From Mycoplasmoidaceae bacterium (GTDB lineage Bacteria > Bacillota_I > Bacilli_A > Mycoplasmatales > Mycoplasmoidaceae): 18,940 nt of DNA. The stretch spans positions 1-18,940 of the forward strand of contig JAKSVP010000013.1 of the NCBI GenBank assembly GCA_024427265.1. Direction: 5' to 3'. The notes beneath the pieces were generated by a model that saw only the letters and a program-made list of their open reading frames with translations, searched no databases and had not been told where the DNA came from. A program made the translations under genes and the position numbers. This document shows positions 1 to 18,940 of the stretch, one piece after another; position 1 is the stretch's first letter, and every line of letters starts with the position of its first letter.

Positions 1-37
1 CTATTGTTGCCAACAGCGATTGACTGTTAGGCTATAG
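1..37. other. Imperfect palindrome at window edge, downstream of polC
   Basis: AACAG at 12-16 pairs with CTGTT at 24-28 around a 7-nt loop. GCC at 9-11 pairs with GGC at 30-32 next to a bulged A, and CTAT at 1-4 pairs with ATAG at 34-37. There is no T-run, so it does not look like a standard terminator. On the minus strand a TATAAT lies just before it (39-44), right after the polC stop. It could be the start of a structured transcript or of a downstream gene outside the window; I cannot tell which. Confidence 0.35.
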
Positions 38-46
38 GATTATACA

Positions 47-3000: not shown

Positions 3001-4456
3001 TTTGACTTAATCCATTTTCAACCATTTCATTTGTGATATGGCTTAAGTTAATTGCAACATTAGTTAATGGTTTAGTTGGTTTAACAAAGAAATCAATACG
3101 ATCAACAATTTCACCTTTTTGGAATTTGATGGCACCAAATTCAATTAAGTCATCATATTCTGGATACAATCCAGTTGTTTCAATATCGAAAACAACATAG
3201 TCAGCTTCAATCAATGATTTATTTACTGGATTAACTACAATTGGAATTTTTCTTTCAATTACTTCAAATTCACATCCATAGATTGCTTTGATGTTTTCAT
3301 AGTTTTTGTTTGCATTGTAAATTAATGGAATGGATTGAACGTTATTACGTTCTAGAATTGCAATTGCGTCATAACCACAATCATTAGCATGTTTTAAAAT
3401 TGCTTCAGGAGCATCAATTCCTTCATATGCTGTCATGTTTGAGTGAATTAATAATTCAACACGTTTATTTTTTGCTTCATCCTTAGAAATTAAATGTTCT
3501 GGACGTTTAGCATGACACATTTTGTTAATCTTACCAGCAGGTTCAAAGTTTGAATATTTATTTGATTCAATTTGACATTCTACATTTACTCATTGACCTT
3601 TTTTAAATGTATTTAAATAGTCCACTGGCATCATTTGTTTTTTTCATGTTGGGTATTGTTGCAAACTATTTAATGCAATGAATGAGCATTTAAGTGCACC
3701 ACCAACATAATCGTAAACAATGAATTCATAAACAGTTACATTGCCATTTTTCTTTGGTGTTTTCTTTTCACAACTTACTATTTCACCAGCAATATTGATA
3801 TTTGAATTTACATAAGAGTCATCAATTTCTTTGATATCAATGAATTCACCAGATACTTTGTATCTTCTATCATATACTTCTGTTTGACCCATCATCTTTT
3901 GACTTTGAGCAATAAGTTTGGCAATGTCATTCTTTCTGATGTTTTCTTGTTCTAGAATTCTGTTTTGCTTAACTTGATTGAATTCATACTTGATTTCTTT
4001 AACATCAAAGTTAGTGTTATTCAAGAATTCAATAAAATCCTTTTCTATCTTTTTTAGTTGTTCTAATTCAGATTTAGAAACATACTTAACAGTCATAACA
4101 CATTTTTCAATGGTGTAATTAGACTTTTGCAATAGATCTTGCAAAATGAAAGAATTAGGATAATTCTTCTTTAATCAAGATTGAATATAGTCATCTATTT
4201 GTGAATAGTTAGTAACACCTGATGTAGATTTGATAATTATTTGTAACTTTTCATCAGGAAAATTTGTTAGCTTGTTATAAACTTTTGTAGGAAGAACCCC
4301 ACTAGGAATAATATAAACAATAACTTTGTTATGTGAAGCTTCTGGCATTTCAATACCAAAATCACAAAAATCAATTATCGCGTTGATTTCTTCGTCATTT
4401 AAAACTTTGGCTTCTAAAAAGAAATTCTTAACGTAATCCTTTGGGACTTTAATCAT
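47..4456 (-). CDS. polC: DNA polymerase III PolC (Gram-positive-type alpha subunit with proofreading exonuclease)
   Basis: Replicative DNA polymerase, 1469 residues, a normal length for PolC. The frame runs from ATG 4456 to TAG 47-49 once UGA is read as Trp. Domain order: N-terminal region (1-190), OB fold (about 195-300), first part of a PHP domain (about 330-410), an inserted DnaQ-like 3'-5' exonuclease with DIETTG (Asp424, Glu426) and a later HRADKD motif, the second PHP part, then the polymerase. The polymerase has a Cys4 zinc knuckle (CPKC near 937-940, CPMC near 961-964), the catalytic DIDLNFSGEYQ near 990, and RTTGQHPGG. A helix-hairpin-helix region lies near the C-terminus, which ends in the clamp-binding-like QMRLF. 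The PHP metal ligands look lost: HxH reads LIH near 336-338 and TDH reads LER near 368-370. It has its own -10 box behind the dxr terminator, and no clear SD. Confidence 0.97.
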
Positions 4457-4466
4457 AAGTAATAAA

Positions 4467-4472
4467 ATTATA
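4467..4472 (-). promoter_or_regulatory. -10 box of polC promoter
   Basis: A perfect TATAAT on the minus strand ends 10 nt before the polC ATG. The position 17 nt upstream for a -35 lies inside the dxr terminator stem and matches poorly. Transcription would start about 3-5 nt before the ATG, so the polC mRNA is predicted to be nearly leaderless. This is inference from spacing. Confidence 0.5.
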
Positions 4473-4475
4473 TAA

Positions 4476-4502
4476 AAATAAATACTCTAAGAGTATTTAT
4501 TT
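4476..4502 (-). terminator. Rho-independent terminator at the end of the tsf-dxr operon
   Basis: A 12-bp perfect stem (4476-4487 with 4491-4502) and a TAA loop. On the minus strand it is followed by a T-rich tract. The dxr stop codon (4497-4499) sits inside the 5' arm as transcribed. The hairpin separates the dxr operon from polC. Confidence 0.75.
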
Positions 4503-5588
4503 TCAGTATTTGATTGACGCTAATCTTGCTTCTTTGTCAAACTCGTAAATATCATCAATTGTTGTGATCTTTTTTCGTTTTATTTTCTTTATTGAGTTTT
4601 CGATGTATTCAACAATTTGATCAAACCTTAGCATCTTTGCTTTAAATAATTTAATTGCTACTTCATCAGCAGCATTGATGATGATTCCAAGTGAATGTGT
4701 TTTATCATTCATCACATCATATGCCCAACTAATTGGTTTGACTTTGTTTAATTTTGTTAAAACTCTAGTTTTAGCATCAGCTTGTAGTTGTTTAGGTAAC
4801 TTATAGTTAAAGTTTGAAATTGCTCATGCTATTGGGCTTGTCATTAAAGGTTTGGAATTCGAATAAGCAAATTCACCATTATTAAGCAAAATTGCAGAAT
4901 GAATGATAGATGTTGGATCATGCAAAACACTTATTCTGTCAGTGTTAAAATATCAATATGCTTCAATTACTTCAAAACATTTATTAATCAAAGTATTTGA
5001 GTCAATTGTTATCTTATTGCCCATTATTCAGTTCTTATGAGAAATTGCTTGTTCATAAGAGACTTTTGCTTTTTCTTCTTTAGAAGCATTTAAATATTTA
5101 CCTCCTGAACCAGTGATATATATTTGGTTAACATCATTAGCTTTAGTTTGCAATAACTGATAATATAAATTTGTATGTTCTGAATCAATTGGGTAAACGC
5201 TAATGCCATGTTTCTTTGCATAGGGCATAATGTATCAACCAGCAACAACAATTGATTCTTTATTAGCTAAAGCTAAATTAACTTTATTATGTAATGCAGC
5301 TAATGTTCCTTCTAATCCAGCAAAACCAATAATTGCATTTACAACTAAATCAGGTTTTGCCTTTTTAATCATTTCATTAAAGCCTGAACAATTTCCAAAA
5401 TCACTATTAGCTGAGCAATATGAGAAAGGAATTTTATTTTCTTTCACTAGTTGTTTGCCTAGTGTTTGGTTATTATGAAAACTACAGCCAACAATTTTGT
5501 AGCCTAGCTTTTTAGCTATAGCTACAGTTTGGGTTCCAATTGAACCAGTTATTCCTAAAATACAAAGTTTGGTGGAACATCCCCTCAT
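4497..5588 (-). CDS. dxr: 1-deoxy-D-xylulose-5-phosphate reductoisomerase
   Basis: NADPH-dependent conversion of DXP to 2-C-methyl-D-erythritol 4-phosphate, the committed step of the MEP isoprenoid pathway; cytosolic. It has 363 residues, slightly short of the usual 380-400. Visible motifs are the nucleotide-binding loop GITGSIGTQ near the N-terminus, ALANKES, the metal/substrate motif PIDSEH, TGSGG, the flap HKNWIMG (His, Trp and Met of the family conserved), [14 protein letters not shown] with the third metal ligand Glu, and NAADEVA. The usual HPQSIIH reads HDPTSIIH, so the first His is displaced by one position. The true end is TAA 4497-4499, after two codons that follow an in-frame UGA(Trp) at 4503. 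ATG 5588 overlaps the end of cdsA by 34 nt with no clear SD, suggesting translational coupling. Last gene of the operon. Confidence 0.93.
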
Positions 5589-6697
5589 AAATATATCAAC
5601 CCATCAGCATTACTAAATGCTAATAACATTACTAATTGAATCACAATAGTTAAGAAGAAATAGAAAGTAAATGTAAAGATTAGGGCATCTAATCTATCTA
5701 AAATGCCACCATGTCCTGGTAATAAATTACTAAAGTCTTTAATGTCAAATCTACGTTTAATAAAACTAAAGAATAAATCGCCTAAAACACTAACAAACAT
5801 TATTACTAATGTTGCTACTACATAAATAGCTCAGAAATATGGTTCTAAATTGATAGGCTTTCCAGCAACTAGTAGAGGGCAACATTGGCATCCTAAGAAA
5901 CGATAAAGGGAACTGTCTAATTCTTCTGCTCCAGGGATTGCATAGAACAACGCATAGATTAAGCACATTGCTGCTAATGTAACACCTGCTCCAAATAAAA
6001 CGCCTTCTCATGTTTTCTTTGGACTAATTTTAGGCGCCATTTGGTGTTTACCAAAATGTGTTCCACCAATATAAGCAAATACATCACAACCTGTACTAAT
6101 CAAAATTAAAAAGGCAAATGTTGTTAAAGAGTGAATAATTGATGTGTAAATAAATCCAACAAAGAATGTATTTAAAACAAAGATTAAGAATGGATATCAA
6201 AATCTTGTTTTCTTACCTACATATATAATATGGCGAGACATTATTACTCACACTAATGTTGACACAAGTGTGAAGAAAATAATGCCACCCAAGCCTATAA
6301 TTAAGAACAATGTGAAATTGTTTATCTTATTGTCTAAATTAAGGGTAAAGAATTCATATCTCATTCCTAGCAAGAAAAATGACATTCCCATTGTTAACAC
6401 AAATAAGGCAATAGTTGTATATATGAATACTGCTTTATGTGTTGGAAAACACAAGTTCGTTATTTCTTTGGAGACAAAGACAATAATTGGAATAACCATT
6501 AAAACATTACATAGGTTTAGAACAAATTGAACATTCATCATTGTTCTAACATCTAATCACATTAATGGAGGAAATCACTTCTCATTAGAGAAATATAAAA
6601 ACAAAAAGAACAAAACATAGAAAGATACAATAAAGATTGCAGATCTTCCTCTAGTAAAAAATACTTTCTTTCTTTGTTCAATTTGTTTTTTGTTCAT
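5555..6697 (-). CDS. cdsA: Phosphatidate cytidylyltransferase (CDP-diacylglycerol synthase)
   Basis: Makes CDP-diacylglycerol from phosphatidate and CTP in the membrane, the precursor of phosphatidylglycerol and so of cardiolipin (compare cls in this window). It has 380 residues. It starts at ATG 6697 with a basic cytosolic tail ([11 protein letters not shown]) and then many hydrophobic segments. The family signature is complete near residues 295-325: SFIKRR, KD, LLPGHGG, then ILDRLD. The SPKKTWEG motif lies upstream near residue 220. The start is 2 nt after the frr stop. An in-frame UGA at 5585 must be read as Trp, so the protein continues nine codons to TAG 5555-5557 and overlaps dxr. In Firmicutes uppS normally lies between frr and cdsA; it is missing here, which fits a wall-less cell. 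Confidence 0.95.
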
Positions 6698-6699
6698 AA

Positions 6700-7254
6700 C
6701 TATAAAGACATTAAGTCTTTTTCTTTATTTGCAAAAATATCTTCTAGTTTTTTATTAGCTTCTTTTGTTACTTTGTTTAATTGATCTTCAAAGTATCTAA
6801 TGTCATCATCTGAAACATCAGGAGCTTTCTTATATTTAGCTTGAACATCTTGTCTTACAGCACGAAGTTTTTGTACAGCTTGATTGTAATATTCTTTTGC
6901 TTTCTTAACAGCATCTCTACGAGTTTCTTCAGTTAATGGAGCAAAAATAATACGAATGCAATCTGGGTTAACTTGTGGGTTAACATGATATTCAGATTCT
7001 GCTAATGCTTTAGCAACTTCTTTAATTAAACTACGATCATATGGTTTAATCAATAATTGTCTAGCGTCAACAGCTTGCACGTTAGCAAGTTGCATTAAAG
7101 GAGTCTTTTCACCATATGCATCAACTTTTAGTTGGTTGAACATATTTGGATTAACTCTACCTGAATTTATTTTTTGAAATTCGTTTTGTAAATATGTAAA
7201 AACTGATTGAGAGTTTCTATCAAACTCAGCTTTTAATACATTTCAGTCAATCAT
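6700..7254 (-). CDS. frr: Ribosome recycling factor
   Basis: Splits post-termination ribosomes together with EF-G. It has 184 residues, the normal family length. The N-terminus MIDWNVLKAEFDRN contains an in-frame UGA(Trp). Family landmarks are the GRVNPNMF region (family GRA.P..), the YG..TPL segment, and the C-terminal helical region with RRDAVKKAKEY, DDDIRYFEDQL and the KLEDIFANKEKDLM tail. ATG 7254 is supported by a perfect AAGGAG SD that lies across the pyrH stop codon, so the two are probably coupled. Confidence 0.96.
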
Positions 7255-7260
7255 AAAGAT

Positions 7261-7266
7261 CTCCTT
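7261..7266 (-). promoter_or_regulatory. Shine-Dalgarno of frr, overlapping the pyrH stop
   Basis: AAGGAG on the minus strand lies 6 nt before ATG 7254 and shares two bases with the TAA stop of pyrH (7265-7267). It fixes the frr start upstream of the internal ATG at 7143. Confidence 0.85.
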
Positions 7267-7969
7267 ATTTGTGAATATGAGTAAATTTAGCTTTTTTCTT
7301 AAATGTCTTTAAGATATTGTCTTTAGCTAAAACATCAAAGACATAAATGTCAATGTTGTTTTCCATACATAGAGTTAAAGCTGATAGGTCCATAACACCT
7401 AATTCTCTACTAATTGCTTCTAAGAATGTTAAACTCTTGAAGAATTTAGCTTTTTTATTTTTGTTTGGATCTGATGAGTAAACACCATCTACACCATCTT
7501 TGCCCATTAAGATAACATCAGCGTGCATATCAATTGCTCTAATTGCACAAGCTGTATCAGTTGTAAAGAATGGATGTCCTGTTCCACCTGCAAAAATAAT
7601 GACTTTGTTTTTTGCTAAATCATCATTAATCTTGTCAATAGCAATTTTGTGTGTGATTTTGTCAACTTCTAAAGCTGAATAAACTTCAGCCTTAACACCG
7701 ATCTTGTGTAGTGTTTCTTTGAAGGCAATACCGTTCATAACGGTAGAAAGCATTCCCATGTAGTCGGCATTAGCTCTTCTAAATGCACGATCTTTGGTCA
7801 TGTTTCCTCTTCAAATATTTCCACCACCTAATACTAGTCCAACTGAAGCTGTCTTGTTTAAAACAGCTAGTTGTTTACACAAAGCTAGTAATTTTTGGTT
7901 GTCATAAATATCTCCGTGAGTGCCTTTAATTGCCCCACCAGAAATCTTGACTAGAACTCTTTTTTTCAT
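7265..7969 (-). CDS. pyrH: UMP kinase
   Basis: Phosphorylates UMP to UDP with ATP; a hexameric amino-acid-kinase-fold enzyme unrelated to eukaryotic UMP/CMP kinases. It has 234 residues, typical for bacterial PyrH. Visible are the N-terminal KKRVLVKISGGA loop, the glycine-rich LGGGNIWRG (Trp encoded by UGA), RRANADYMGML, the acceptor-site GGTGHPFFTTDTACAIRA, and the ATP-site segment KDGVDGVYSSDP. The ATG overlaps the tsf stop by one base (TAATG), a classic coupling arrangement. Confidence 0.97.
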
Positions 7970-8853
7970 TATTTGTTAGTTCCCATTTGTTGAGCTACTT
8001 CAGTAGCGAAGTCAACAGTTTTCTTTTCAAGTCCTTCACCAACTTCATATCTAGCAAAGCTTAACAGCTTTATACCTTTTGAAGCTAGTAATTGACCAAC
8101 TGTAATAGTTGGTTCAAAGTCAAATTCTTGATTGCATAGACAAACTTCAGCAAGTCTCTTTGCTAATCTTCCTTCAACGATCTTCTTTAGGAATTTAGCA
8201 GGTTTGTTGCCATTTTGACTTGTCTTTTCAATAATTGTCTTTTCAGTTTCAACTCAGCTAGCATCCACTTGCTTAGCGTTGATGAACTTAGGGTTTCTTG
8301 CAACAATGTGCATACAAATTTGTTTCTTTAAAGTTTCATCAACTTTTTTGTCAAATAGACAAATTGAAGCATATTTCTTGTTTGCATGTTGATAGAAAGC
8401 AACATCTTGTCCTGCTTGTTTTACAATTCTACCAAATCTTCTAACTGAAATCTTTTCTCCAGTTTTTGCAGTTAATGTATCACATTTAGAACCAACTGTT
8501 TCACCATCAGAAAGTTTTAAGTTCTTAACAACTTCAATGTCAAGACATTCTGAATTATGAATTTGTTTCATAATTTCTTCACATAGTTTAATAAAGTGTT
8601 GGTTCTTAGCAGCAAAGTCTGTTTGAGTGTTAATTTCAATAATGTAAGCACTCTTGTCATTAACTCCAGATAATGCAACACCTTCAGCGGCAATTGCTCC
8701 AGCTTTCTTAGCAGCTTTTGCTAGTCCTTTTTCTCTTAGATATTTGCTAGCAGCTTCAAGATTGTCGTGGCATTCAATTAATGCTTTCTTACAATCAACA
8801 AAACCGGCTTGCGTCATATCTCTTAATTGTTTAATTAATTTAGCGTCAGCCAT
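7969..8853 (-). CDS. tsf: Translation elongation factor Ts
   Basis: Guanine nucleotide exchange factor for EF-Tu, whose gene ends at the right edge of the window. It has 294 residues. The N-terminal UBA-like module LIKQLRDMTQAGFVDCKKAL matches the family, followed by the GLAKAAKKAGAIAAEG linker and the core motif INTQTDFAAKN (family NSETDFVA). The later EVCLCNQ and GQDVAFYQHAN segments match the dimerisation/core repeats. Start ATG 8853 has an AGAGG SD about 7 nt upstream. First gene of the tsf-pyrH-frr-cdsA-dxr operon; rpsB, its usual upstream partner, is not here. Confidence 0.97.
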
Positions 8854-8870
8854 AATTTACCTCTATATTT

Positions 8871-8899
8871 TTGTATTTTAATTATTATATAATTAAAAT
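8871..8899 (+). promoter_or_regulatory. Candidate cls promoter
   Basis: TTGTAT (8871-8876), a 17-nt spacer, then TAAAAT (8894-8899). The -10 ends only 8 nt before the cls ATG, so the mRNA would be nearly leaderless, and no SD is present. A TATAAT at 8888-8893 is an alternative -10 without a good -35. Confidence 0.4.
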
Positions 8900-8912
8900 T
8901 ATAAATTATGAA
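8884..8912 (-). promoter_or_regulatory. Candidate promoter of the tsf-dxr operon
   Basis: Minus strand: TTCATA (8907-8912), a 17-nt spacer, then a perfect TATAAT (8884-8889). Transcription would start near 8877, giving a leader of about 24 nt that carries the AGAGG SD. The -35 overlaps the cls start codon, so the two divergent promoters interlock and may compete for polymerase. Confidence 0.5.
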
Positions 8913-10455
8913 TAAGAATAAGATACTAATTTCAGGAATAGTCGCAACATTGCTGCTTCTTGGAATAATAGGAGCTACTTGCCTATTTATTTTTATCCAT
9001 GTTTTGTGACCACTTGTTATTGCATTAGCTGTTGTTTTAGTATTGGAAATTGGTTTTGCTATAAGAATCATTATTTCCCCAAGAAGTAGCTATGCTAAAG
9101 CGAGTTGGATGATTGTTATTCTTGTCTTTCCTGTTATAGGATTATTAGTTTTTATAATCTTTGGTGTTTATCCTTTAAGAAAAAGGCAAAGAAAAGCATA
9201 TTTGAATCAATTAAAACAAATTATTGATTACGAAGATTTTAAATTGAGTGAAGACATCGAAATTGATCCTAAATTAAATTGATTATTCAATTATGGTTTG
9301 AAGCATCAATACAAACCAATAAATAAGAATAATGATATTAGAGTTATCACAGATAACACGCAATTATTTGAAGAATCAATCAAGCTAATTAAATCAGCAA
9401 AAGAATATATTAATGTTCAAAGTTATATCTTTAGTTATGATGGTTTTTGATCTAAAGTTTTCTTCACTGAATTAATTAAAAAAGCTAACGAAGGTGTTAA
9501 AGTTAGACTTATTTATGACTGACTTGGAGCGCACAAGAGAGTTAATAACAAAATCTTCAAACAATTGCAACAATATGGTGTAGAAGTTGCTTGTTTCAAC
9601 CCTAAAGGTTTTACACAATTTAAAGGAGCAACAAACTATCGTTTGCACTCAAAATTTGTTATCGTTGACAACAAATCTGCTTTATATGGCGGAAGCAACT
9701 TTGCTGATGAATATTTATCAATGAATAGAAGCAATTGTCATTGAAGAGACTTAAACTTCTTAATCACTGGACCAATTGTTAATTCAATGAACATAACGTT
9801 CGTTAACTATTGATTAGCATTTTGCAAAACAACAAATGACAAGATTAGTAAACAAAACATCTTAAATGATGCTCAATTAATCTTTAGAAAACATGAATTT
9901 AAGCCAACACCAACGCTTTGTCAACTTCTAGTTTTTGAACCAGACTTTAACGAATTCGCACTTGAAAATGCATTATTACATGCCTTCTACAATGCTAAGA
10001 AATCAATCAAGATTTTAACACCATATTTCTGTCCACCAAACAGTTTGATTGAAGCATTAAGGTCTTGTCATTTTAATGGAATTAAAGTTGAAATTATTGC
10101 TCATAACAAAAACCAAAAATATGTTCAAATGATGAACAGAGAAAACTATAAAAAACTGGCTGATGCAGGAATGAATGTTTATGAATATGATGGTTATCTC
10201 CACTCAAAATGTGTAATTATTGATGATGAATATGTTATGACTGGATCATGCAACGTTGACTGACGTTCAATTTATTTAGACTTTGAATCAGAATTAATTG
10301 TCTATGACAAAAAATTCACAAATGAAGTATTAAGTGTGTATGAAAACACAAAGAAAAACTCAACACTTCAAACTGCACAAATACTCCATAAAAAACTAAA
10401 TTTGTGATCTCGTTTCTTGCTTAAATTACTTAACTTCGGTAAGAGTTTGTTCTAA
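8908..10455 (+). CDS. cls: Cardiolipin synthase (phospholipase D superfamily)
   Basis: Membrane enzyme that joins two phosphatidylglycerol molecules into cardiolipin plus glycerol. It has 515 residues, a normal length for the bacterial ClsA type. Two or three hydrophobic N-terminal segments (about 5-50 and 63-88) are followed by the basic PLRKRQRKAY. There are two PLD catalytic HKD motifs: HSKFVIVD with GGSN (His247, Lys249, Asp254) and HSKCVIIDDEYVMTGSCN (His432, Lys434, Asp439). Several Trp are UGA-encoded, one directly after the second motif. Transcribed divergently from tsf with no SD; it ends in a terminator. It works downstream of CdsA in anionic phospholipid synthesis. Confidence 0.95.
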
Positions 10456-10457
10456 AG

Positions 10458-10484
10458 TTTTGGAAGAAAATTCCAAAATTTTTT
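10458..10484 (+). terminator. Rho-independent terminator after cls
   Basis: Stem TTTTGGAA / TTCCAAAA (10458-10465 with 10471-10478), loop GAAAA, then six T and a further T-rich stretch. It begins 3 nt after the cls stop. Confidence 0.85.
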
Positions 10485-10515
10485 ATTTTTCTGCGAAGAG
10501 TTATATGAGGCTCTT

Positions 10516-10998
10516 ATGAACAACAATTTAGGAATGTATATAGAACAATTGGTAGACAGAACCATAACATACTACCAATTTAATAATCTTGGTTTTTTAG
10601 AAAAAAGGCAAATACCAATTAAGGTTTTAAAACACATAAACGAAACAACTGTAGTAGCTAAACTTGTAGCTAAAGCTAAAGTTGACTATTTTGGTTTTAT
10701 TAGCAACAACTATCTTGAAATTGAATGCAAACAAACAAAACATGAATTCTTCGATATATCATTAATAAAACACCACCAACTCAACTATTTAAAATATGTT
10801 AGTGAGAATAATTGCAAAGCATTTGTTCTTATCTATTTTGAGCAATATAACAAAGTTATAGCGCTATCGTATGGGCAATTATTAAAGTGTAAGCAAATAG
10901 CAAAGAAAAATGCCCTGCCATTTAATATTGTGGCAGAGCAAGGAATTGAATTAGAAATTATCTATCCTGGAATATTAAACTTAAAGAAGTTATTGTAA
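10516..10998 (+). CDS. recU: Holliday junction resolvase RecU
   Basis: Structure-specific endonuclease that cuts four-way junctions in recombination and repair, acting with RuvAB. It has 160 residues, shorter than B. subtilis RecU (about 206), mainly at the ends. The PD-(D/E)XK core is visible: KVDYFGF with Asp57, then YLEIECKQTK with Glu70 and Lys72, followed by the family HHQLNYL segment. GFLEKRQIPIKV corresponds to the HKRPTPIQIV region that contains the conserved Arg. ATG 10516 has a TGAGG SD 5 nt upstream. No separate promoter was clear; a short leader with GCGAAGAG follows the cls terminator. The 3' end overlaps the rpiB-like gene by 9 nt, tail to tail. Assignment is by motif recognition; the overall divergence is high. 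Confidence 0.82.
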   Translation: MNNNLGMYIEQLVDRTITYYQFNNLGFLEKRQIPIKVLKHINETTVVAKLVAKAKVDYFGFISNNYLEIECKQTKHEFFDISLIKHHQLNYLKYVSENNCKAFVLIYFEQYNKVIALSYGQLLKCKQIAKKNALPFNIVAEQGIELEIIYPGILNLKKLL

Positions 10999-11958
10999 TT
11001 CTTTTGGAACAATGATACTCTTTTCAAGTTTAATTTCTTTAAACTTAGCTTTATCAAATTCCATACCAAATTCATCAATTTTCTTATAAATTGGATTGTC
11101 TTTTGCAGGAGTTTCTAAATATGTATCTACAGTTTTTAGAGCTTGTTCTTTATTAGAGAACTTAGATCCCATAACTAAAGTATTAGCACCATAAACTTCT
11201 CTAGCAATCTTAGCATTTTCAGGAGTCATGCAAACACATGCTCTTATTCCTTTAAACTTGTTTAAAGAGTTTGCCATGCCCATGCCTGTGTAGCAGAATC
11301 CAATAGCAAAGCTTGCTTCAGGAATGTGTTGGGCCATTGCTGCGCCAAATAATGAATAGTGTGTTGAATCTAATGAGTTTGTACCAACATCAATGATTTT
11401 GTATCCTTTAGATACTAAATGTTCTTTAACAGCTTCTTTTAATGCAAAACCAGCATGGTCTGAACCAACTACTACTGTTTTATTTGGAGTCTTTGAATAT
11501 TCAATTGACTTTGTTGTTGGAGACATAGCACCATGGATGATTTGCAATCTAGTTACATGTCTTCCAGCTTCAAATTCAGAAACACAGAAGGCATTAATAA
11601 TATTATTAAGTTTTTCGTTTGGGTTAATTCTCTTAACTGGGATAATGCAAACTTTTGAGTTGTTGTGCGCTCTAATTAAGTTCGCACTATATTCATCAAA
11701 AGCCGATGTTGCTACTCATCCTTTTTGTTTAGAAATAAACAAGAAAGGTCCATAGGCATAATCATCAATAATAATGAATCTTCTGAATTTTCCGTGTATA
11801 AATCCTTTGTATGCTTCTTCGAAATCTTCAAGTCAATTTTGATCGTTGTATGTTTGGATCAAATCTTGACTTTCAGCAAGATTTTTATTATTTTTGATTG
11901 TTTCCAAAACATTATATGTTTTGTCAATACTTTCTTTTACTAATACTTTAATTTTCAT
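10990..11958 (-). CDS. rpiB: Double-domain RpiB/LacAB-type sugar-phosphate isomerase (fused, composite active site predicted)
   Basis: A 322-residue protein with two RpiB-fold domains in tandem; normal RpiB has about 150 residues. C-terminal domain (about 159-322): SDHAG (Asp167, His168), GFCYTGMGMA with the catalytic Cys222 and Thr224, NKFKGIRAC, GANTLVMG. It lacks the family HND (reads Val255-Tyr256-Gly) and the phosphate-binding EFEGGRHxxR tail. N-terminal domain (1-140): no DHAG and no C-x-T-G, but it keeps FDEYSANLIRAHNN (His98) and EFEAGRHVTR (Arg133, Arg137). Each half keeps what the other has lost. RpiB and LacA/LacB form dimers whose active site uses residues of both subunits, so I infer a fused pseudo-dimer with one working site. 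Likely reaction: ribulose 5-phosphate to ribose 5-phosphate; another aldose/ketose phosphate pair is possible. Start ATG 11958 lies 8 nt after a TATAAT; there is no SD. Confidence 0.85.
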
Positions 11959-11966
11959 ATATATTT

Positions 11967-11995
11967 ATTATATTAAATAAGATAAAAAATGCCTA
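11967..11995 (-). promoter_or_regulatory. Candidate promoter of the rpiB-like gene
   Basis: Minus strand: TAGGCA (11990-11995), a 17-nt spacer, then a perfect TATAAT (11967-11972) ending 8 nt before the ATG. The mRNA is expected to be almost leaderless. The 46-nt divergent gap must also hold the start signal for the plus-strand helicase, for which I see only weak candidates (TAAGAT at 11978-11983) and no SD. Confidence 0.45.
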
Positions 11996-12004
11996 AAAAC
12001 GAAC

Positions 12005-15000
12005 ATGCCATCTAAAGTCTTACAAGAAAAACGTAAAAATTTACTAGAACTAAATAAAAACAGCCAAGAACTATTTTTATCAAAAGGATTTGTCAATATT
12101 CTAAAGTTCATAAGCTATGAACAACTACTAGCTTTTGCTCAAGATCCAAACTCTTTTGAAATTAAAGTTGACCTAACAGAATTGTTAAATTCAACAACTA
12201 ATACATTAAGTATGTGTCAAACTAATCTTGAATTAAAAAACAAGATTGAAGAACTAAAAATTGACTATGACACAACTAAGATAGATGTGCAAAATGGTAC
12301 AGACACACAAAGAAAGAATATTGTTAATGCTATAGGCAAAGACATTATTGATGAATTTAAACAAATTCATAAGATGTGTAAATTATCAACTGATGAATTC
12401 TATGATTCAGGCAAATGATGTTTATGATTATGCTTTGGTGTGCTTGAAACATCACTAGCAACTGTTATCTCTACAGAGAAGTTTAATGTAAGAGCACCTT
12501 TATTGGCTTTGCCAATTGGTGTTAAGAAAGTTTCTGACACAACATACACTTTATTTAAAAGAGATAAAGAATTTTATAGTAACGAAATCTTAAGTATCTT
12601 TCTAAAAGACAAATTAAATATTAAATATATTGAAAACACCCAATTGGAACAAATTACATCAATTGAAGATACTTTAGCAAATATTGCTACAAAGATTCCT
12701 AACTGTCAATTTAATAAAGATATCCACAACTTAAATGTTGTGAAGAAAACAGAATACAAAACAATTGATGCAGCTAAAATTGATAATATCTGCATCTTAG
12801 GATTTGTTAATCCTGTTGGTGGAAAGATGTTAGAAGATTATGATGAGATCCTTTCTAGCGATTATACTTTCCCTCAAGAAAACTTAATGTTTACTAACCA
12901 CGGCCTTGATCAATTAATCTATCAAGATGACCAAGTTATGGAACTTGGTAGACTATTAAATGTCAACCAAAAGAAAGCAGTTGTAGCAAGTTTAAAAACT
13001 AATACATTAATATATGGTCCTCCAGGAACTGGTAAGTCAGAAGTTGTTACAAGCATTATTGCTAACAATATAAATCAAGGATTTAATGTTTTAATTTCGT
13101 CAGAAAAGAAGGCTGCCCTAGATGTTATTATTGATAGATTAGATGCACTTAAATCAATAACTATCTCAGTTAATCCTGAAGATATTGAATCATTCTATGA
13201 TCGTATCATTGCTTTAAATGATGAAATCATTAATGCTAACCAAATGACATTTGATACAGCTAAACCTACTTACTTATCATTAGTTAACTATGTTAAGAGT
13301 TTATTAGACATTGCAAATGATGCAAACAAAGCAACAGCTTTAGATAATTTGCAAAATAAACAACAAAGCGCAACAAACACAAATAAAGATATATTACAAG
13401 CTATGCTTAACAAAATCAAAGCTTCAAAAGTAAGCATTGCTGATTTTGTTAAACAACTTTACCGTTTCCATAGTGCTGCTAGCATTATTTGCAAATACTA
13501 TCCAATCAATTCCTCAATTGTTCATGTCTTTAAACAAGAAAATGTTATCAAAGCAATAGAAGCTATTGAAAAACAAGAAAACCCAAGCAAAAAGTTTGCA
13601 ATCATTGAAAACTTTGTTAGGTATAACAAAATCAAAGCTGGATTATTTGTTCCTAAAATAACAGCTGAACAAATGACTCAACTTGATGAAATGCTAAAAG
13701 CATTGACATATATAAAGGAAAACAGTCCTTTAGCATTCTTCATTAACTATAGTGATTGGTTGAGTGTTATCAACAGCCATGATGAACAATCATTATGCAA
13801 TGATTTGGATATTGACCAAACTCAACATGAAGAAGGTTTTGTTTCAATCTTTAATAACATTAATAGTGGTAAATTGTTATACACATATCTAGATGAATAC
13901 TGAACATCTAGTTTATCAAAAGCGTCGGTTGCTGCTAAGCTTATCAAAGATAAGTATCTTTATGAATTAAAACAAAAATTCATTAATGACCCAAAGATGC
14001 AAGCGACATGAATTGAAATGGTTAAGAAAGCTCACCTTCCAACAAAAATAAATGTTGCAAGATTTATTAAGGAATATTATTCTATTCTTAAGTTTGTCTT
14101 CCCAATTTGAATTCTATCACCAGATAACGTTGCTAACTACATTCCTTTAAACCAACACGAATTTGCAGTTGGTATCTTTGATGAAGCAAGCCAAATGCGA
14201 GTAGAAAGATCAATCCCATTGATCTATCGCTGTACAAGATCAGTTGTATCGGGTGATGACAAACAATTAAGACCAAGTAGATTCTTTGCTGCAAACATTT
14301 CAATTGATGAAGAATCATTAACATCAGATGAAGAACTAGATAATGTTGAATCATTGCTTGATAAAGCAAAGATTGCTAACTGATCAAGCTTTACTCTATC
14401 TAACCACTATCGTTCAAACTGCGAAGAACTTATTAATTTTAGTAATAAGTATATTTATGAAAACAAATTACTATGTATTACTAAAAATGGCTGCAACAAT
14501 ACAAAACCAGTTGAAGTAGTGCAAATGCCTGAAACTACTATCTACGATAGAAGTACTAACACAAACCCTGATGAAGCAAAGAAGGTTGTTGATATAGTTA
14601 AATCTTCAGAACAATATAAGAAGATTGTAATTATTACATTCAACCAAAAACAAGCTGATCTAATTGAAAATATGTGTTATCAATTCCCATTCTTAACAGC
14701 AAGAATTGAAGCAGATACTATTCGTATCAGATCAATTGAAAATGTTCAAGGTGATGAAGCGGACTTAGTTGTTATCTCAACTACATTCGGTACAGATGCT
14801 GCAGGAAAGTTTATTCAAAACTTTGGTCCAGTTGGACAAGCTGGTGGTAAGAACCGTATTAACGTTATGGTTACTCGTGCAAAAGAAAAGATGATTGTTG
14901 TTAAATCATTTAAGTCTGATGCTATTACATCAACAAACAATGACAACCTATACATCTTAAAGATGTTCTTGTTCTATATTGAAAACTTGCAAGAAAACAA

Positions 15001-15352
15001 AAACATTATTACAAGTGATGCTGCAAAAGGTATGGACAAACCAATTACTCAGGATGTAGCTAATCAATTAGCTAACAACTTTGCTGGTTTAGAAATTAAA
15101 ACTAATTATGGTATTGGCTCACATAGCTTCAACATTGCTGTTATGAATCAAGACAAGATTGAATTATTAATCTTGATTGATGACAACAATGACTTCAAAT
15201 CAAAGAAAGAAGTCAATGCATGAATTGATAGCTTTGATCAAGAAAAATACTATGTTGATCGAGGTTATAAAGTTTTAAGGTTTAATGAAGTTGAATGAAA
15301 CTTTGCTAAACAACAAATTATTAATAAAGTCAAACATTTATTAAATAAATAA
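12005..15352 (+). CDS. Superfamily 1 DNA/RNA helicase, MG140-like, with C-terminal nuclease-like domain
   Basis: A 1115-residue ATPase. Its length and organisation match my memory of the uncharacterised helicase MG140 of M. genitalium (about 1113 residues). Helicase motifs in order: Walker A YGPPGTGKS (338-345), a long insert (about 400-700, helical with coiled-coil-like stretches), motif II FDEAS (726-729), motif III SGDDKQLRP, NHYRSN, motif V with QGDEAD (915-920), and motif VI NVMVTRAKEK (953-962). This is the Upf1/Dna2-type arrangement. From about 1028 the tail resembles Vsr-like endonuclease domains (GIGSHSFNIAV, then ILIDD, a spacer, and RGYKVLRFNEVEW), but the expected Asp reads Asn1043 and the E-x-D reads I-D-D, so it may be inactive. 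Several UGA(Trp) codons interrupt a standard-code reading. A role in repair or RNA metabolism is inferred. ATG 12005 has no SD; an in-frame TAA at 11978 limits any extension. Confidence 0.88.
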
Positions 15353-15360
15353 GATATTTT

Positions 15361-15390
15361 TTGCTTTTACCCTATAAAATCTAATAATAT
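15361..15390 (+). promoter_or_regulatory. Candidate guaB promoter
   Basis: TTGCTT (15361-15366), an 18-nt spacer, then TAATAT (15385-15390). The predicted start near 15397 would leave only a very short leader carrying the AGAGG SD (around 15399-15402). There is no room for a riboswitch. No terminator hairpin is seen between the helicase and guaB, so readthrough is possible. Confidence 0.4.
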
Positions 15391-15409
15391 ATTACAAAGA
15401 GGTTTAACA

Positions 15410-16909
15410 ATGGCAAAGATATTAAAAGATGAAGCTCACACATTCAATGAATATTTGTTAATCCCTGACTATAGTGGGGTTAAAAATATTCCATCTAATG
15501 TGAGTTTAAAAACTCCATTAACAAAATTTAAAAAAGGTTCTAAACCAAAAATTGCAATGAACATTCCAATGGTTAGTGCAATTATGCAATCTGTTTCTGG
15601 TGATAAATTAGCAATAGCTTTAGCTAAAGAAGGTGGTGTAACATTTATCTTTGGTGCACAATCTATTGCAAATGAAGCAGCAATGGTTAGAAACGTTAAA
15701 GCACAAAAAGCAGGTTTTGTTATTAGTGACTCTAACTTAAAAGAATCTGCTACTCTAGCAGATGTAATTGCTCTAAAGAAGAAAACAGGGCATGAAACTA
15801 TTGCTATTACTTCTGATGGAACATGCAATGGAAAACTATTAGGTCTAGTTACATCTAAGGACTATCGTCCTAACCGTTTACCTCTAACTACAAAAGTTAA
15901 AACTTTTATGACGCCTCTTAAACAATTAGTAATTGCTCATGATGGTATTTCATTAGAAAAAGCTAATGACAAAATCTGAGATAACAAAGTTAACCAATTA
16001 CCAATTGTTGATAAGAACGGTAATTTAAAATACCTAGTCTTTAGAAAAGACTATGATGAACATGAACTATATCCAAACGAATTATTAGACGATAAGAAGC
16101 GTTATATCGTTGGTGCGGGAATTAATACTCGTGACTATAAAGAAAGAGTTCCTGCATTAGTTAAAGCAGGTGTAGACGTTGTTTGTCTAGACAGCTCAGA
16201 TGGTTTTACTCAATGACAAGCTGATGCTATTAAATGGATTAAAAAACAATATCCATCATTACCAGTAGGTGCTGGAAATGTTGTTGATGGTAAAGGATTT
16301 AGATTCTTAGCTAAAGCTGGTGCTGACTTTGTCAAAGTTGGTATTGGTGGCGGATCAATTTGTATCACACGTGAAACAAAAGGTATTGGTCGTGGACAAG
16401 CAACAGCAGTTATTGACGTATGTCAAGAACGTGACAAATATCTAAAAGAAACTGGATACTATGTTCCAGTATGTTCAGATGGTGGTATTGTTTTGGATCA
16501 CCACATAACTCTTGCTTTAGCAATGGGAGCTGACTTTGTTATGTTAGGTAGATACTTCGCTAGATTTGATGAATCACCAAGTAACAAAGTTAATATCAAT
16601 GGAACATTCTATAAAGAATATTGAGGTGAAGGTTCAGCAAGAGCTAGAAACTGACAACGTTATGATTTAGGTGGCGATGCTAAACTTAAATTCGAAGAAG
16701 GTGTTGATAGTTATGTTCCATATGCTGGATGTTTAAGTGATAACGTAAGACTATCACTTGAGAAAGTAAAATCAACAATGTGCAACTGTGGTGCTTTATC
16801 TATTAAAGAACTACAAAAGAATGCAACTTTAACACTTGCAAGTTCTACTTCAATTATTGAAGGTGGAGCACACGATGTTGTCTTAAAAGACAAAGTAAAT
16901 GTAAAATAA
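15410..16909 (+). CDS. guaB: IMP dehydrogenase
   Basis: Oxidises IMP to XMP with NAD+, the committed step to GMP. It has 499 residues and a full (beta/alpha)8 barrel. A CBS-type insert lies at about 110-215 ([19 protein letters not shown] through [11 protein letters not shown]). Catalytic features are the Cys318 loop [10 protein letters not shown], the substrate Asp in [20 protein letters not shown], the mobile-flap Arg417-Tyr418 pair in NWQRYDLGG, and [15 protein letters not shown] 15410 has an AGAGG SD 8 nt upstream. From start ([10 protein letters not shown]) to end ([11 protein letters not shown]) it resembles the Tritrichomonas foetus enzyme that I remember more than the B. subtilis type, with the catalytic Cys and Arg-Tyr pair offset by one residue. 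It feeds XMP to the convergent guaA. Confidence 0.96.
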
Positions 16910-16930
16910 GAGCCGTCAAGCTCTTATTTT
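16903..16930. terminator. Shared bidirectional terminator between guaB and guaA
   Basis: An 11-bp perfect stem (16903-16913 with 16920-16930), loop CGTCAA, with T-rich flanks on both strands. The guaB stop (16907-16909) lies in the 5' arm, and the guaA stop (16931-16933) directly abuts the other arm. It can serve both converging genes. Confidence 0.8.
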
Positions 16931-17881
16931 TTATTCTCATTCTATTGTACCAGGAGGTTTTGATGTTACATCATAACCAACTCTGTTGATACCATCTACT
17001 TCATTAGTTATACGTTTAGAGATTTTTGCAATAACACTATAAGGTAATTGAGCAAAGTTTGCAGTCATAGCATCTTTAGATTCTACTGCTCTAATGACAA
17101 CAAAGTTGTCATATGAGCGTTTACCATGTTTAATACCTGTTGATTTAACATTTGGTAATACTACAAAGTATTGTCATAGTTTTTTATTTAATCCTGCTTT
17201 TTCAATTTCTTCACGAACAATTGCATCAGCTTCTTGAAGAATATGAACTTTAGCTGGAGTTAGTTCTCCTAGAACTCTAACTCCTAAACCAGGACCTGGA
17301 AATGGTTGTCTAATAAGGAAAGAACTTGGTAAGCCAAGTTGTTTGCCAACTTCTCTAACTTGTGGTTTGTATAACATCTTAAGTGGTTCTACTAAACCAA
17401 GTTTTAAATCTTTTGGTAAACCACCAACATTGTGGTGAGACTTAATTACATTAGATTTTTTAGATTCAACAATGTCAGGATAAATTGTTCCTTGTGCTAA
17501 TCATTTTAAACCTTTAATGCTCTTAACACATGTTTTGAAAACATCTATAAATGTTTTACCAATAACTTTCCTTTTTTGTTCTGGGTCAGTTACACCTTTT
17601 AGATTTTTAAAGAAAGTGTTTTGAGCATTAACATATTTAAAGTTAATGGCGGGAAAAGCTTTCTTAAAGCTTGCTTGTACTTGCTTGCCTTCATTCTTTC
17701 TCATTAATCCCGTATCAACAAAGACACAAGCTAATTGTTTGCCAATAGCTTTGTAGACAATAGCAGCAGTTACTGCTGAGTCTACTCCACCAGATAAAGC
17801 ACAGATAACTTTTTCTTTACCAACTTGTTTTCTAATGGCTTTAATTTGCTTATTTACAAAGTCTTTAATATTTAATTTCAT
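16931..17881 (-). CDS. guaA: GMP synthase, ATP-pyrophosphatase (synthetase) part only
   Basis: Activates XMP with ATP and aminates it to GMP. The 316 residues cover the ATP-PPase and dimerisation domains only: [11 protein letters not shown]-loop near 30-39, [32 protein letters not shown], the [15 protein letters not shown] segment, and the C-terminal XMP-site end KPPGTIEWE (Trp is UGA). Bacterial GuaA normally has a further N-terminal glutamine amidotransferase domain of about 190 residues with a Cys-His-Glu triad. It is absent: an in-frame TAA lies two codons upstream of ATG 17881, and the start has a GAAAGG SD. The enzyme must use free ammonia or a separate glutaminase subunit (as archaeal GuaAa/GuaAb do), not visible here. 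Sequence motifs look bacterial, so domain loss is more likely than archaeal origin (inference). Confidence 0.95.
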
Positions 17882-17958
17882 TATTTAAGCCCTTTCTCTT
17901 GATCATCTAGAACGACAACGTCTCTTAAGTTTCTAAACTCTCCTATACTTTAATTTTA
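17882..17958 (-). promoter_or_regulatory. guaA leader with weak promoter and small hairpin
   Basis: A possible -10 TAAAAT lies at 17953-17958 with a poor -35. The leader contains an AGGAG motif (about 17939-17943) with no start codon at a suitable distance, a small hairpin (AGA, bulged G, ACG, loop TTGT, CGTTCT), and the true SD GAAAGG before guaA. One frame of the leader is open for about 20 codons without ATG and ends in a TAA that overlaps the guaA ATG by two bases (TAATG). I do not recognise a known purine riboswitch core. Confidence 0.3.
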
Positions 17959-17976
17959 AAATAAAATTAATAAAAC

Positions 17977-18009
17977 AAAAAAAAGAAACCTGAATAGGTT
18001 TCTTTTTTT
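17977..18009 (-). terminator. Rho-independent terminator after the zinc-ribbon gene
   Basis: Stem AGAAACCT / AGGTTTCT (17984-17991 with 17996-18003), loop GAAT in plus-strand orientation, flanked by A- and T-runs that extend the stem. On the minus strand a run of eight T follows. It ends the 18018-18200 gene 9 nt past its stop. Confidence 0.85.
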
Positions 18010-18017
18010 ATATGTAA

Positions 18018-18200
18018 TTAATTAGTTGTTCCAGTTAATTCCATTTTTGTTTTGCATTTTGGACATTTAGGTGTCTTCATTGCAGTTATTGATCCAACCA
18101 AGCCAGAAACTGATTTAGTCATAGTAAATCCACATTTTGGGCATTGATAAGATCTAGTAGGAACATTTCTGGCCTTAACAGTGTTATTAAATAACCCCAT
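18018..18200 (-). CDS. Small zinc-ribbon protein of unknown function
   Basis: A 60-residue protein, MGLFNNTVKARNVPTRSYQ at the N-terminus. It has two CPKC knuckles (Cys20/Cys23 and Cys46/Cys49) separated by 22 residues, typical of a single four-Cys zinc ribbon. I do not recognise a specific family; zinc ribbons of this size bind nucleic acid or protein. ATG 18200 is chosen because an AAAGG SD lies 8 nt upstream and a strong promoter lies just before it. The longer open frame to 18272 would begin upstream of that promoter and run through its TA repeat, so it is not credible. Monocistronic: own promoter and own terminator. Confidence 0.75.
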   Translation of the reverse strand: MGLFNNTVKARNVPTRSYQCPKCGFTMTKSVSGLVGSITAMKTPKCPKCKTKMELTGTTN

Positions 18201-18221
18201 ATTTAATCCTTTCTTACGCTC

Positions 18222-18250
18222 ATTATATATATATATATAGAAATGAGCAA
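18222..18250 (-). promoter_or_regulatory. Promoter of the zinc-ribbon gene with (TA)n spacer
   Basis: Minus strand: TTGCTC (18245-18250), exactly 17 nt, then TATAAT (18222-18227). The spacer is mostly an alternating TA run that merges with the -10. GCTCATT and AATGAGC flank the TA run as inverted repeats. The leader to ATG 18200 is about 15 nt and carries the SD. Confidence 0.7.
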
Positions 18251-18270
18251 AAACCTGAAAATAGCAAAAC

Positions 18271-18294
18271 AAAAAGAAGCCCGGCCGAGCTTCT
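18271..18294 (-). terminator. Rho-independent terminator after the lipoprotein gene
   Basis: Minus-strand RNA: stem AGAAGC/GCUUCU, extended by a U-G wobble and a C-G pair, small GC-rich loop, then five U. It is GC-rich against an AT-rich background. It lies 28 nt past the stop of the 18323-18793 gene and is identical in copy B. Confidence 0.85.
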
Positions 18295-18322
18295 TTTAAT
18301 AATATTATGGCTAAATAAAATG

Positions 18323-18793
18323 TTATTTTAATGATGTTAAAACCAAATGTATGCGCCCTTGGATTCTGCTTATAACATGGATAACAATTTTATCATTTAC
18401 CTTTGGGTTTTTATAATTTTCAACAATATATGAGTTATGAAATGTACCCTCATGGAATATCACTTCATAGTTAGATATTGTTCCATCTTCAGATGTAACC
18501 TCGCAGCTTTTAACATCAAGGGGATAATCTTTATCACCTTTAACATCAATATCAGATATTTCAAAATAAAAGTAGACTCAATCTGTTGTTGTAGAATGCT
18601 TCCCTACATTAACTATAATGTCCAATTCTTGTCCTTTAGTTAATCTGCCATCACCTCAAAAAGACCAACTTGTAGTTAAATCGTTTCATGTTAATCGAAT
18701 ATTCTTTAGTGCGCATGAAGATATTACAGGCAAAGTTGTTGTTGCAACTACACTAGCAAAAGCAATAGGTAATATTTTTTTAAGAGTTTTCAT
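18323..18793 (-). CDS. Small surface lipoprotein, unknown function
   Basis: A 156-residue predicted lipoprotein. The signal peptide has a basic start (MKTLKKI), a hydrophobic core and a lipobox-like VISSC ending at Cys27, which would be lipidated and anchor the protein outside the membrane. The mature part is rich in alternating hydrophobic/polar stretches (LDIIVNVG, WVYFYFEISDIDV, YEVIFHEGTFH, DKIVIHVISRI), suggesting a beta-sandwich. I do not recognise a family. Three Trp codons are UGA and one is UGG. ATG 18793 has a GGAG SD about 8 nt upstream and the cassette-B promoter just before it. It has its own terminator, so it is a single-gene unit between tuf and the zinc-ribbon gene. Confidence 0.85.
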
Positions 18794-18808
18794 ATTCTTC
18801 TCCCGCTC

Positions 18809-18837
18809 ATTATATATATATATATAGAAACGAGCAA
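18809..18837 (-). promoter_or_regulatory. Promoter of the lipoprotein gene with (TA)n spacer
   Basis: Minus strand: TTGCTC (18832-18837), 17-nt spacer made of GTTTC plus the TA run, then TATAAT (18809-18814). The ATG is 15 nt after the -10, with the SD (GGGAG) between them. Confidence 0.7.
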
Positions 18838-18849
18838 AAACCTGAAAAC

Positions 18850-18873
18850 AAAAAGAAGCCCGGCCGAGCTTCT
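18850..18873 (-). terminator. Rho-independent terminator after tuf
   Basis: Same GC-rich stem as the terminator at 18271-18294 (AGAAGC/GCTTCT plus wobble) followed on the minus strand by five T. It lies 23 nt past the tuf stop. Confidence 0.85.
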
Positions 18874-18896
18874 TTTTAGTAAAATTTGAAGAAAAA

Positions 18897-18940
18897 TTAA
18901 GCAATAATTTCAGTAACGTTTCCAGCACCTACTGTGTGGC
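18897..18940 (-). CDS. tuf: Elongation factor Tu, C-terminal end (partial, runs off the window)
   Basis: The last 14 codons read HTVGAGNVTEIIA plus one partial codon at the edge, then TAA at 18897-18899. This matches the strongly conserved EF-Tu C-terminus (RTVGAGVVTEII). EF-Tu delivers aminoacyl-tRNA to the ribosome; its exchange factor Ts is encoded at 7969-8853. The start and GTPase domain lie beyond the right end. Only the tail is seen, but this tail is diagnostic. Confidence 0.85.
   Translation of the reverse strand, partial: HTVGAGNVTEIIA

Follow-up and report, generated by a model that had tools for sequence, protein, structure and literature searches.

A fused RpiB/LacA/LacB-family isomerase from a Mycoplasmoidaceae bacterium with a probable single composite site per chain

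In an 18,940-nucleotide stretch of contig from a Mycoplasmoidaceae bacterium (GCA_024427265.1, JAKSVP010000013.1, positions 1 to 18,940; here called the window), we analyzed a gene encoding a 322-residue protein made of two fused domains of the RpiB/LacA/LacB isomerase family (10990..11958, minus strand, like all of its parts given below; genetic code 4, with TGA read as tryptophan at residues 42 and 81). The first-pass annotation of this DNA had placed the gene correctly in coordinates, strand, and residue numbers. It is likely that the product is a single-chain sugar-phosphate isomerase with one active site, probably born by gene fusion and likely acting on ribose 5-phosphate and ribulose 5-phosphate, as far as packing, reaction, and substrate can be inferred from the evidence below.

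The fused gene is neither a chance reading frame nor an assembly error, because it has 23 relatives in the database and a ratio of nonsynonymous to synonymous substitution rates (dN/dS) of 0.10. The latter was calculated over the whole gene against the copy of Candidatus Hennigella equi (dS 0.78), whose product is 88% identical to the window protein; this organism is placed in the Mycoplasmoidaceae by PMC8957277. The protein search with the fused sequence gave 51 matches. The 23 fused relatives (P0002-P0024) comprise 21 of full length (306-328 amino acids) and two short ones (P0021 and P0023), and the remaining 28 matches (P0025-P0052) align to a single domain of the query, with 35-50% of it covered.

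Pfam matched PF02502 (LacAB_rpiB, gathering score 24.7 bits) in two stretches of the fused protein, the whole chain scoring 170.2 bits. Searched alone, residues 1-140 (48 bits, E 1.6e-12) and residues 157-322 (126.1 bits, E 1.3e-36) are both above the gathering score, as expected from the two RpiB domains that the first-pass annotation had recognized. The N-half (residues 1-142, 11533..11958) is an A-type, LacA-like domain by Pfam, NCBIfam, tree, and predicted fold, and the C-half (residues 160-287, 11098..11481) is a B-type, RpiB/LacB-like domain by Pfam, NCBIfam, and predicted fold. They are separated by a linker with bounds chosen by us (residues 143-159, 11482..11532) and followed by a C-terminal tail conserved across the fused family (residues 288-322, 10993..11097), on the evidence of sequence alignment and of structural alignment to LacB 4lfk_B. 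The top NCBIfam models were those of LacA for the N-half (53.7 and 53.6 bits, under cut-off) and of RpiB for the C-half (112 and 110.3 bits). The equivalog cut-offs of LacA and LacB were reached neither by the pieces nor by the whole chain (107.6 versus 164 for LacA and 83.5 versus 234 for LacB). The whole chain is above the cut-off of the general RpiB/LacA/LacB model TIGR00689 (146.9 versus 88.3); its score of 145.6 with the RpiB model TIGR01120 (cut-off 138.65) sums two domains, and the C-half alone, at 110.3, is under that cut-off.

The closest known layout is that of LacAB (EC 5.3.1.26; Lactobacillus rhamnosus, 4lfk). LacA contributes Met92, His96, Asn97, Arg130, His131, and Arg134 to the single site of this enzyme, and LacB contributes Asp8, His9, Ile10, Arg39, Tyr42, Cys65, Thr67, Ile69, and Thr73, while the other potential site is vacant and filled by hydrophobic and bulky residues (PMC3755991). 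The N-half of the fused protein keeps His98, Asn99, Arg133, His134, and Arg137, within the motifs R96-A-H98-N99-N100 and F-E-A-G-R133-H134-V-T-R137. The ring-opening pair His98-Asn99 (11662..11667) is equivalent to LacA His96/Asn97, and the phosphate-binding segment Arg133-His134-x-x-Arg137 (11548..11562) to LacA Arg130/His131/Arg134. According to the alignment, this half has lost the rest of a complete site, with Ser10-Ile11 in the place of Asp-His and Asp65-Asp-Tyr67-Ala68 in the place of Cys-x-Thr-Gly. The C-half keeps Asp167, His168, Tyr201, Cys222, Thr224, and Gly225, within the motifs D167-H168-A-G and C222-Y-T224-G225, and has Val255-Tyr256 aligned with His-Asn and Pro289, Ile290, and Lys293 aligned with Arg, His, and Arg. 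Its Asp167-His168 (11455..11460) are equivalent to LacB Asp8/His9, and the catalytic base loop Cys222-Tyr-Thr224-Gly225 (11284..11295) contains the equivalents of LacB Cys65/Thr67. Tyr201, the equivalent of LacB Tyr42, is likewise kept by the C-half only and had not been listed before.

All live residues but Gly225 match those split between LacA and LacB, and the likeness extends to one live and one dead site, the PF02502 fold, and the order of the parts, with A before B in the lacAB genes of three loci (L114-L116) and the A-half first in the fused chain. The fused protein differs from LacAB in being one chain rather than two, in having Ser198 for Arg39 and Leu94 for Met92, in its scores under the LacA and LacB cut-offs, and in the failure to find LacD in genomes of the family. 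With RpiB (TIGR01120; Mycoplasma genitalium, 6mu0), it shares the fold, the Cys-x-Thr-Gly base loop, serine at the Arg39 position, a basic residue (Lys266) at the position of Arg113 of Mycobacterium tuberculosis RpiB, and probably the reaction. RpiB, however, works as a homodimer in which the two sites are equivalent and every chain carries both half-sites, a pattern not seen in the fused protein, in which each half carries one half-site.

The contrast between the two pockets is borne out by conservation. The alignment contained 24 proteins, including the window protein, and conservation was counted over the 22 full-length ones (37-99% identity to the window protein), excluding P0021 and P0023. 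At the live site, 10 of 11 positions are invariant (His98, Asn99, Arg133, His134, Arg137, Asp167, His168, Tyr201, Cys222, and Gly225); the only one to vary is Thr224, which is serine in one protein. At the second, dead site, none of the 11 homologous positions is invariant. We picked the 11 positions from the pocket list of the LacAB paper (PMC3755991) and added Gly225, omitting LacA Met92 and LacB Ile10, Arg39, Ile69, and Thr73. As this choice left out Met92 and Arg39, which are replaced in the window protein, the hypergeometric value of 2e-8 for live versus dead positions is post hoc, and the evidence lies in the residue-by-residue contrast. The complementary loss of catalytic residues proposed in the first-pass annotation is thus upheld. 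Because of this contrast and the match to the residues in the LacAB paper, it is very likely, on sequence grounds, that each fused chain has one composite site, which the same annotation had also predicted. We read the dead pocket as filled by bulky or charged residues, like the vacant site of LacAB.

The structure models were confident, with predicted local distance difference test (pLDDT) values of 92.5 and 91.6, and the full chain, modeled as a monomer, had a predicted template modeling (pTM) score of 0.90. Structural comparison of the models showed the RpiB/LacAB Rossmann-like fold in both halves, including residues 1-140, for which the lack of such a fold had earlier been named as a finding that would speak against the proposal. 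The alignment of the model with LacB 4lfk_B runs through to residue 314 of the model and residue 170 of the chain. LacA 4lfk_A was not the top structural match of the N-half, ranking only 16th among its Foldseek matches. In the mechanism that we propose, the two domains would pack like a LacA/LacB or RpiB dimer and form one live pocket. The N-terminal A-type domain would supply His98 and Asn99 for ring opening and Arg133/His134/Arg137 for phosphate binding, the C-terminal B-type domain would supply Asp167, His168, Tyr201, the base Cys222, and Thr224, and the pseudo-symmetric second pocket would have lost its catalytic residues.

Most likely, such an enzyme would serve to interconvert ribose 5-phosphate and ribulose 5-phosphate, a reading drawn from gene content and from Ser198. 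In the metagenome-assembled genome (MAG) of Candidatus Hennigella equi (G001, completeness unstated), no PF02502 gene was found besides the fused one. A search for RpiA was negative in all 15 genomes examined, G001 included, while transketolase was found in 14, Rpe in 13, and phosphoribosyl pyrophosphate synthase in 14 of them; G001 has all three. With no RpiA or other PF02502 gene found in G001, its pentose-phosphate route would be short of an isomerase if the fused gene were not counted. LacD (TIGR01232), in contrast, was found in none of the 95 genomes of the family, although Escherichia coli and Lactococcus lactis controls were positive, so a galactose 6-phosphate route would have no visible next step. 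PF01791 had one match in 14 of the 15 genomes. The 11 of these genes that were scanned, from G001 and all the others except G244, G012, and G124, scored as deoC over its cut-off. The position of LacB Arg39 is Ser198 in the fused protein, invariant in all 22 rows. It is serine in 17 of 25 single-domain RpiB rows and arginine in all three reference LacB sequences. In M. tuberculosis RpiB, Arg113 does the phosphate role of Arg39 (PMC3755991); this position holds Lys266 in the fused C-half and arginine in 25/25 single-domain RpiB rows. With Arg39 replaced by Ser198 and LacD found in none of the 95 genomes, the substrate is probably something other than galactose 6-phosphate. The fused protein is LacAB-like in layout but most likely a ribose-5-phosphate isomerase in function; it is probably the route of this gut mycoplasma to ribose 5-phosphate. 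The earlier proposal of a one-chain version of LacA/LacB therefore stands for the layout and the A-type N-half, but the substrate is more likely ribose 5-phosphate and the C-half may descend from LacB or RpiB.

To trace the origin of the halves, we used a tree of 98 domains, which has long branches and bootstrap support that is not fully settled. LacA, the A genes of split pairs, and the fused N-halves group together (100/100). The fused C-halves form one clade (100/97), placed with RpiB of the order and with the B genes of a lineage carrying TsaC fusions (99/85); in a tree without the A rows, they again fall with the RpiB/TsaC-clade B genes, outside the LacB-type clade (100/94). Tandem duplication of one rpiB within the gene, with the halves as sisters, was rejected by the approximately unbiased (AU) test (p 0.007), as was the idea that the fused halves and the TsaC-clade halves all share one origin separate from LacA/LacB and the other RpiBs (p 0.004). 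The TsaC-attached A-half is put among RpiB by the free tree, but its union with the A-type was not rejected (p 0.27). Because of the long branches and the unsettled bootstrap, we limit our claims on origin to two: the N-half is A-type, and the gene did not arise by simple duplication within itself. It would most likely have arisen by joining adjacent A and B genes, in an order still seen in relatives.

Several observations weigh against the one-site ribose-5-phosphate isomerase or limit it. Trp42, Asp65, and Tyr256 of the dead site are nearly fixed (each 21/22), which points to more than simple drift; the filling of the second pocket may be maintained for a structural or some other role. In AU tests, forcing the fused C-half together with the LacB-type gave a log likelihood 0.77 higher (p 0.52), and the same constraint without the A rows one 8.2 lower (p 0.31). 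At residues 199-201, the fused C-half has retained Thr-His-Tyr as in LacB, whereas most RpiB sequences have x-Asp-Tyr there. The Arg39 equivalent is kept in 15 of 18 split B genes, yet no LacD was found in the family searched, so Arg39 is not a clean substrate marker. G012, a genome with only an adjacent A/B pair, lacks transketolase and Rpe, so a pentose-phosphate role cannot explain every pair. Finally, MAG incompleteness weakens every absence.

Of the alternatives, the one that survives best is about origin and could hold alongside the one-site mechanism: the protein may be a chimera of a LacA-type subunit and an RpiB-derived C-half, which we consider possible but less likely than not. Both trees favor it by placing the fused C-half with RpiB and TsaC-clade B genes (99/85 and 100/94). 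The AU tests nevertheless do not reject the union with the LacB-type (p 0.52 and p 0.31) and do not settle this first reading of the tree, and relatives have adjacent A and B genes. It is unlikely that the protein is a one-chain galactose-6-phosphate isomerase with the true LacAB function, in a tagatose-type or other hexose-phosphate route. Such a function would agree with the LacA models as best matches of the N-half, the Thr-His-Tyr of the C-half, the tail aligning toward the LacB end, and the residue partition, but not with LacD in 0/95 genomes, the change of Arg39 to Ser198 in 22/22 fused rows, the scores under the LacA and LacB cut-offs, and the failure to find another candidate for a ribose-5-phosphate isomerase in G001. 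Slightly less probable still is an intertwined or swapped oligomer with sites between two fused chains, for which the linker of just about 17 residues and the higher oligomer of AB pairs formed by LacAB itself (PMC3755991) could be cited; the pTM of 0.90 for the monomeric full chain argues against it, and since the live residues fall one set to each domain, such an arrangement too would leave a single live site for every chain. We give hardly any credence to a degenerate, leftover N-half beside a C-half working as an ordinary homodimer, since the N-half, though farther from PF02502 (48 versus 126 bits), has its His/Asn/Arg/His/Arg invariant in 22/22 proteins in a gene with a dN/dS of 0.10 overall, and a C-half homodimer, having other residues at these positions, would be left without the His and Arg contribution to its site.

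We investigated how the single-chain isomerase and its relatives are packaged across genomes. Across the order, 265 of 298 genomes have PF02502; within the family, 69 of 95 had a match to the window protein. Single-frame fusions were found in three family genomes (G001, G228, and G278), and a profile search across the whole order, with matches shown down to E 1e-30 so that weaker fusions would escape, found uninterrupted single-frame fusions in the same 3 of 298. Adjacent A-then-B genes occur in 16 of the 95 (G124, G250, G177, G132, G244, G109, G118, G242, G144, G135, G189, G168, G156, G224, G272, and G186), of which nine have three PF02502 matches, the third of which we read as canonical RpiB, and seven have the pair only. 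In seven more genomes (G002, G004, G012, G018, G024, G030, and G036), hand-picked from those with two matches and excluding other two- or three-match genomes outside the family, adjacent pairs are the sole PF02502 matches. These LacA/LacB-like Mycoplasmoidaceae genes resemble the fused protein in having complementary A and B partners (18 pairs) and no LacD found; they differ in being two genes and in the Arg39 equivalent kept by 15 of 18 B genes. Family loci with adjacent pairs include L069, L072, L079, and L080, the Arg39 equivalent being serine or threonine in the latter two, much like the serine of the fused protein. The ribose-5-phosphate role may extend to adjacent A/B pairs.

In a third packaging, detected with Pfam in 4 of the 95 family genomes (G192, G256, G216, and G094), an A-half stands behind a Sua5/YrdC domain (TsaC, the enzyme of t6A tRNA modification) and the B-half is encoded elsewhere. 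G216 has a third PF02502 match, under cut-off, and G198 is a probable fifth such genome, its second match being under cut-off at a contig end. The A-type half is at the C terminus of the TsaC fusions (L066:2298-3287, L064:3027-4040, L109:829-1812, and L111:1474-2466). This lineage shares the half-site split with the fused protein but has the A-half joined to Sua5/YrdC, a separate B-half, and His-Asp-Asp for His-Asn-Asn. A protein search with one TsaC fusion gave 56 matches, 35 of them with both PF01300 and PF02502, and the database relatives include Ureaplasma names (P0064 is Ureaplasma ceti). Single RpiB domains are also fused to other partners (P0038, P0040, P0046, P0047, P0029, P0048, P0039, and P0052), with the accessions PF14681/PF00156 (taken to be uracil phosphoribosyltransferase), PF01451 (low-molecular-weight phosphatase), and PF00923 and PF00834 (ribulose-phosphate 3-epimerase).

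These packagings raise a wider idea, which we hold with a little less than even confidence: in several wall-less lineages, an obligate A+B half-site enzyme from LacAB-like genes may have replaced homodimeric RpiB as the only ribose-5-phosphate isomerase, packaged as adjacent genes, as one fused chain, or as a TsaC-tethered A-half with the B-half elsewhere. It would give a testable answer to a puzzle posed by mycoplasmas such as Candidatus Mycoplasma girerdii, for which a galactose-6-phosphate isomerase gene pair has been reported in the absence of tagatose kinase and aldolase, its roles being described as unclear (PMC4206474); our comparison with this pair is based on that paper. Should the A+B enzymes prove to be ribose-5-phosphate isomerases, such reduced genomes would have a complete pentose-phosphate route, and their annotation as galactose users would be mistaken. 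The fused protein would also be a natural one-chain dimer with a composite site, whose dead twin site allows a residue-by-residue comparison with the live site. None of the papers listed from the open-licence part of PubMed Central dealt with LacA fused to LacB, with two RpiB domains in one chain, or with TsaC joined to RpiB; passages of PMC8895549 and PMC10321239 contained nothing bearing on the fused isomerase.

The gene order around the fused gene is guaA, guaB, helicase, fused gene, RecU-like gene, cls, tsf, pyrH, frr, cdsA, and dxr, the same as in L001, the locus of Candidatus Hennigella equi. Neighbor names are our reading of the open reading frames (ORFs), except for the RecU-like and Dxr genes, named after their best NCBIfam models at scores under cut-off. 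The RecU-like gene (10516-10998, plus strand; 117.7 bits, cut-off 154) is convergent with the fused gene, and their 3' ends overlap by 9 bases. On the other side lies a gene for a 1115-residue helicase-like protein (12005-15352, plus strand), at the same place in L001, which resembles the C-terminal part of ProA and Hhe, both anti-phage proteins (at NCBIfam scores far under cut-off), and the PADLOC models PDC-S37 and Hhe. The Dxr-like gene of the methylerythritol phosphate isoprenoid pathway (4497-5588, minus strand; 235 bits, under the equivalog cut-off of 315.7) adjoins putative frr, cdsA, and polC in the ORF reading. Near the end of the window, a leader of 51 nucleotides is duplicated (94%) together with an identical 32-nucleotide hairpin-like stretch with a T-run (18211-18297 and 18798-18876). 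The lipoprotein-like ORF beside these leaders had no NCBIfam match. The ORFs that they adjoin (18018-18272 and 18323-18928) look like ribosomal-protein-type and lipoprotein genes.
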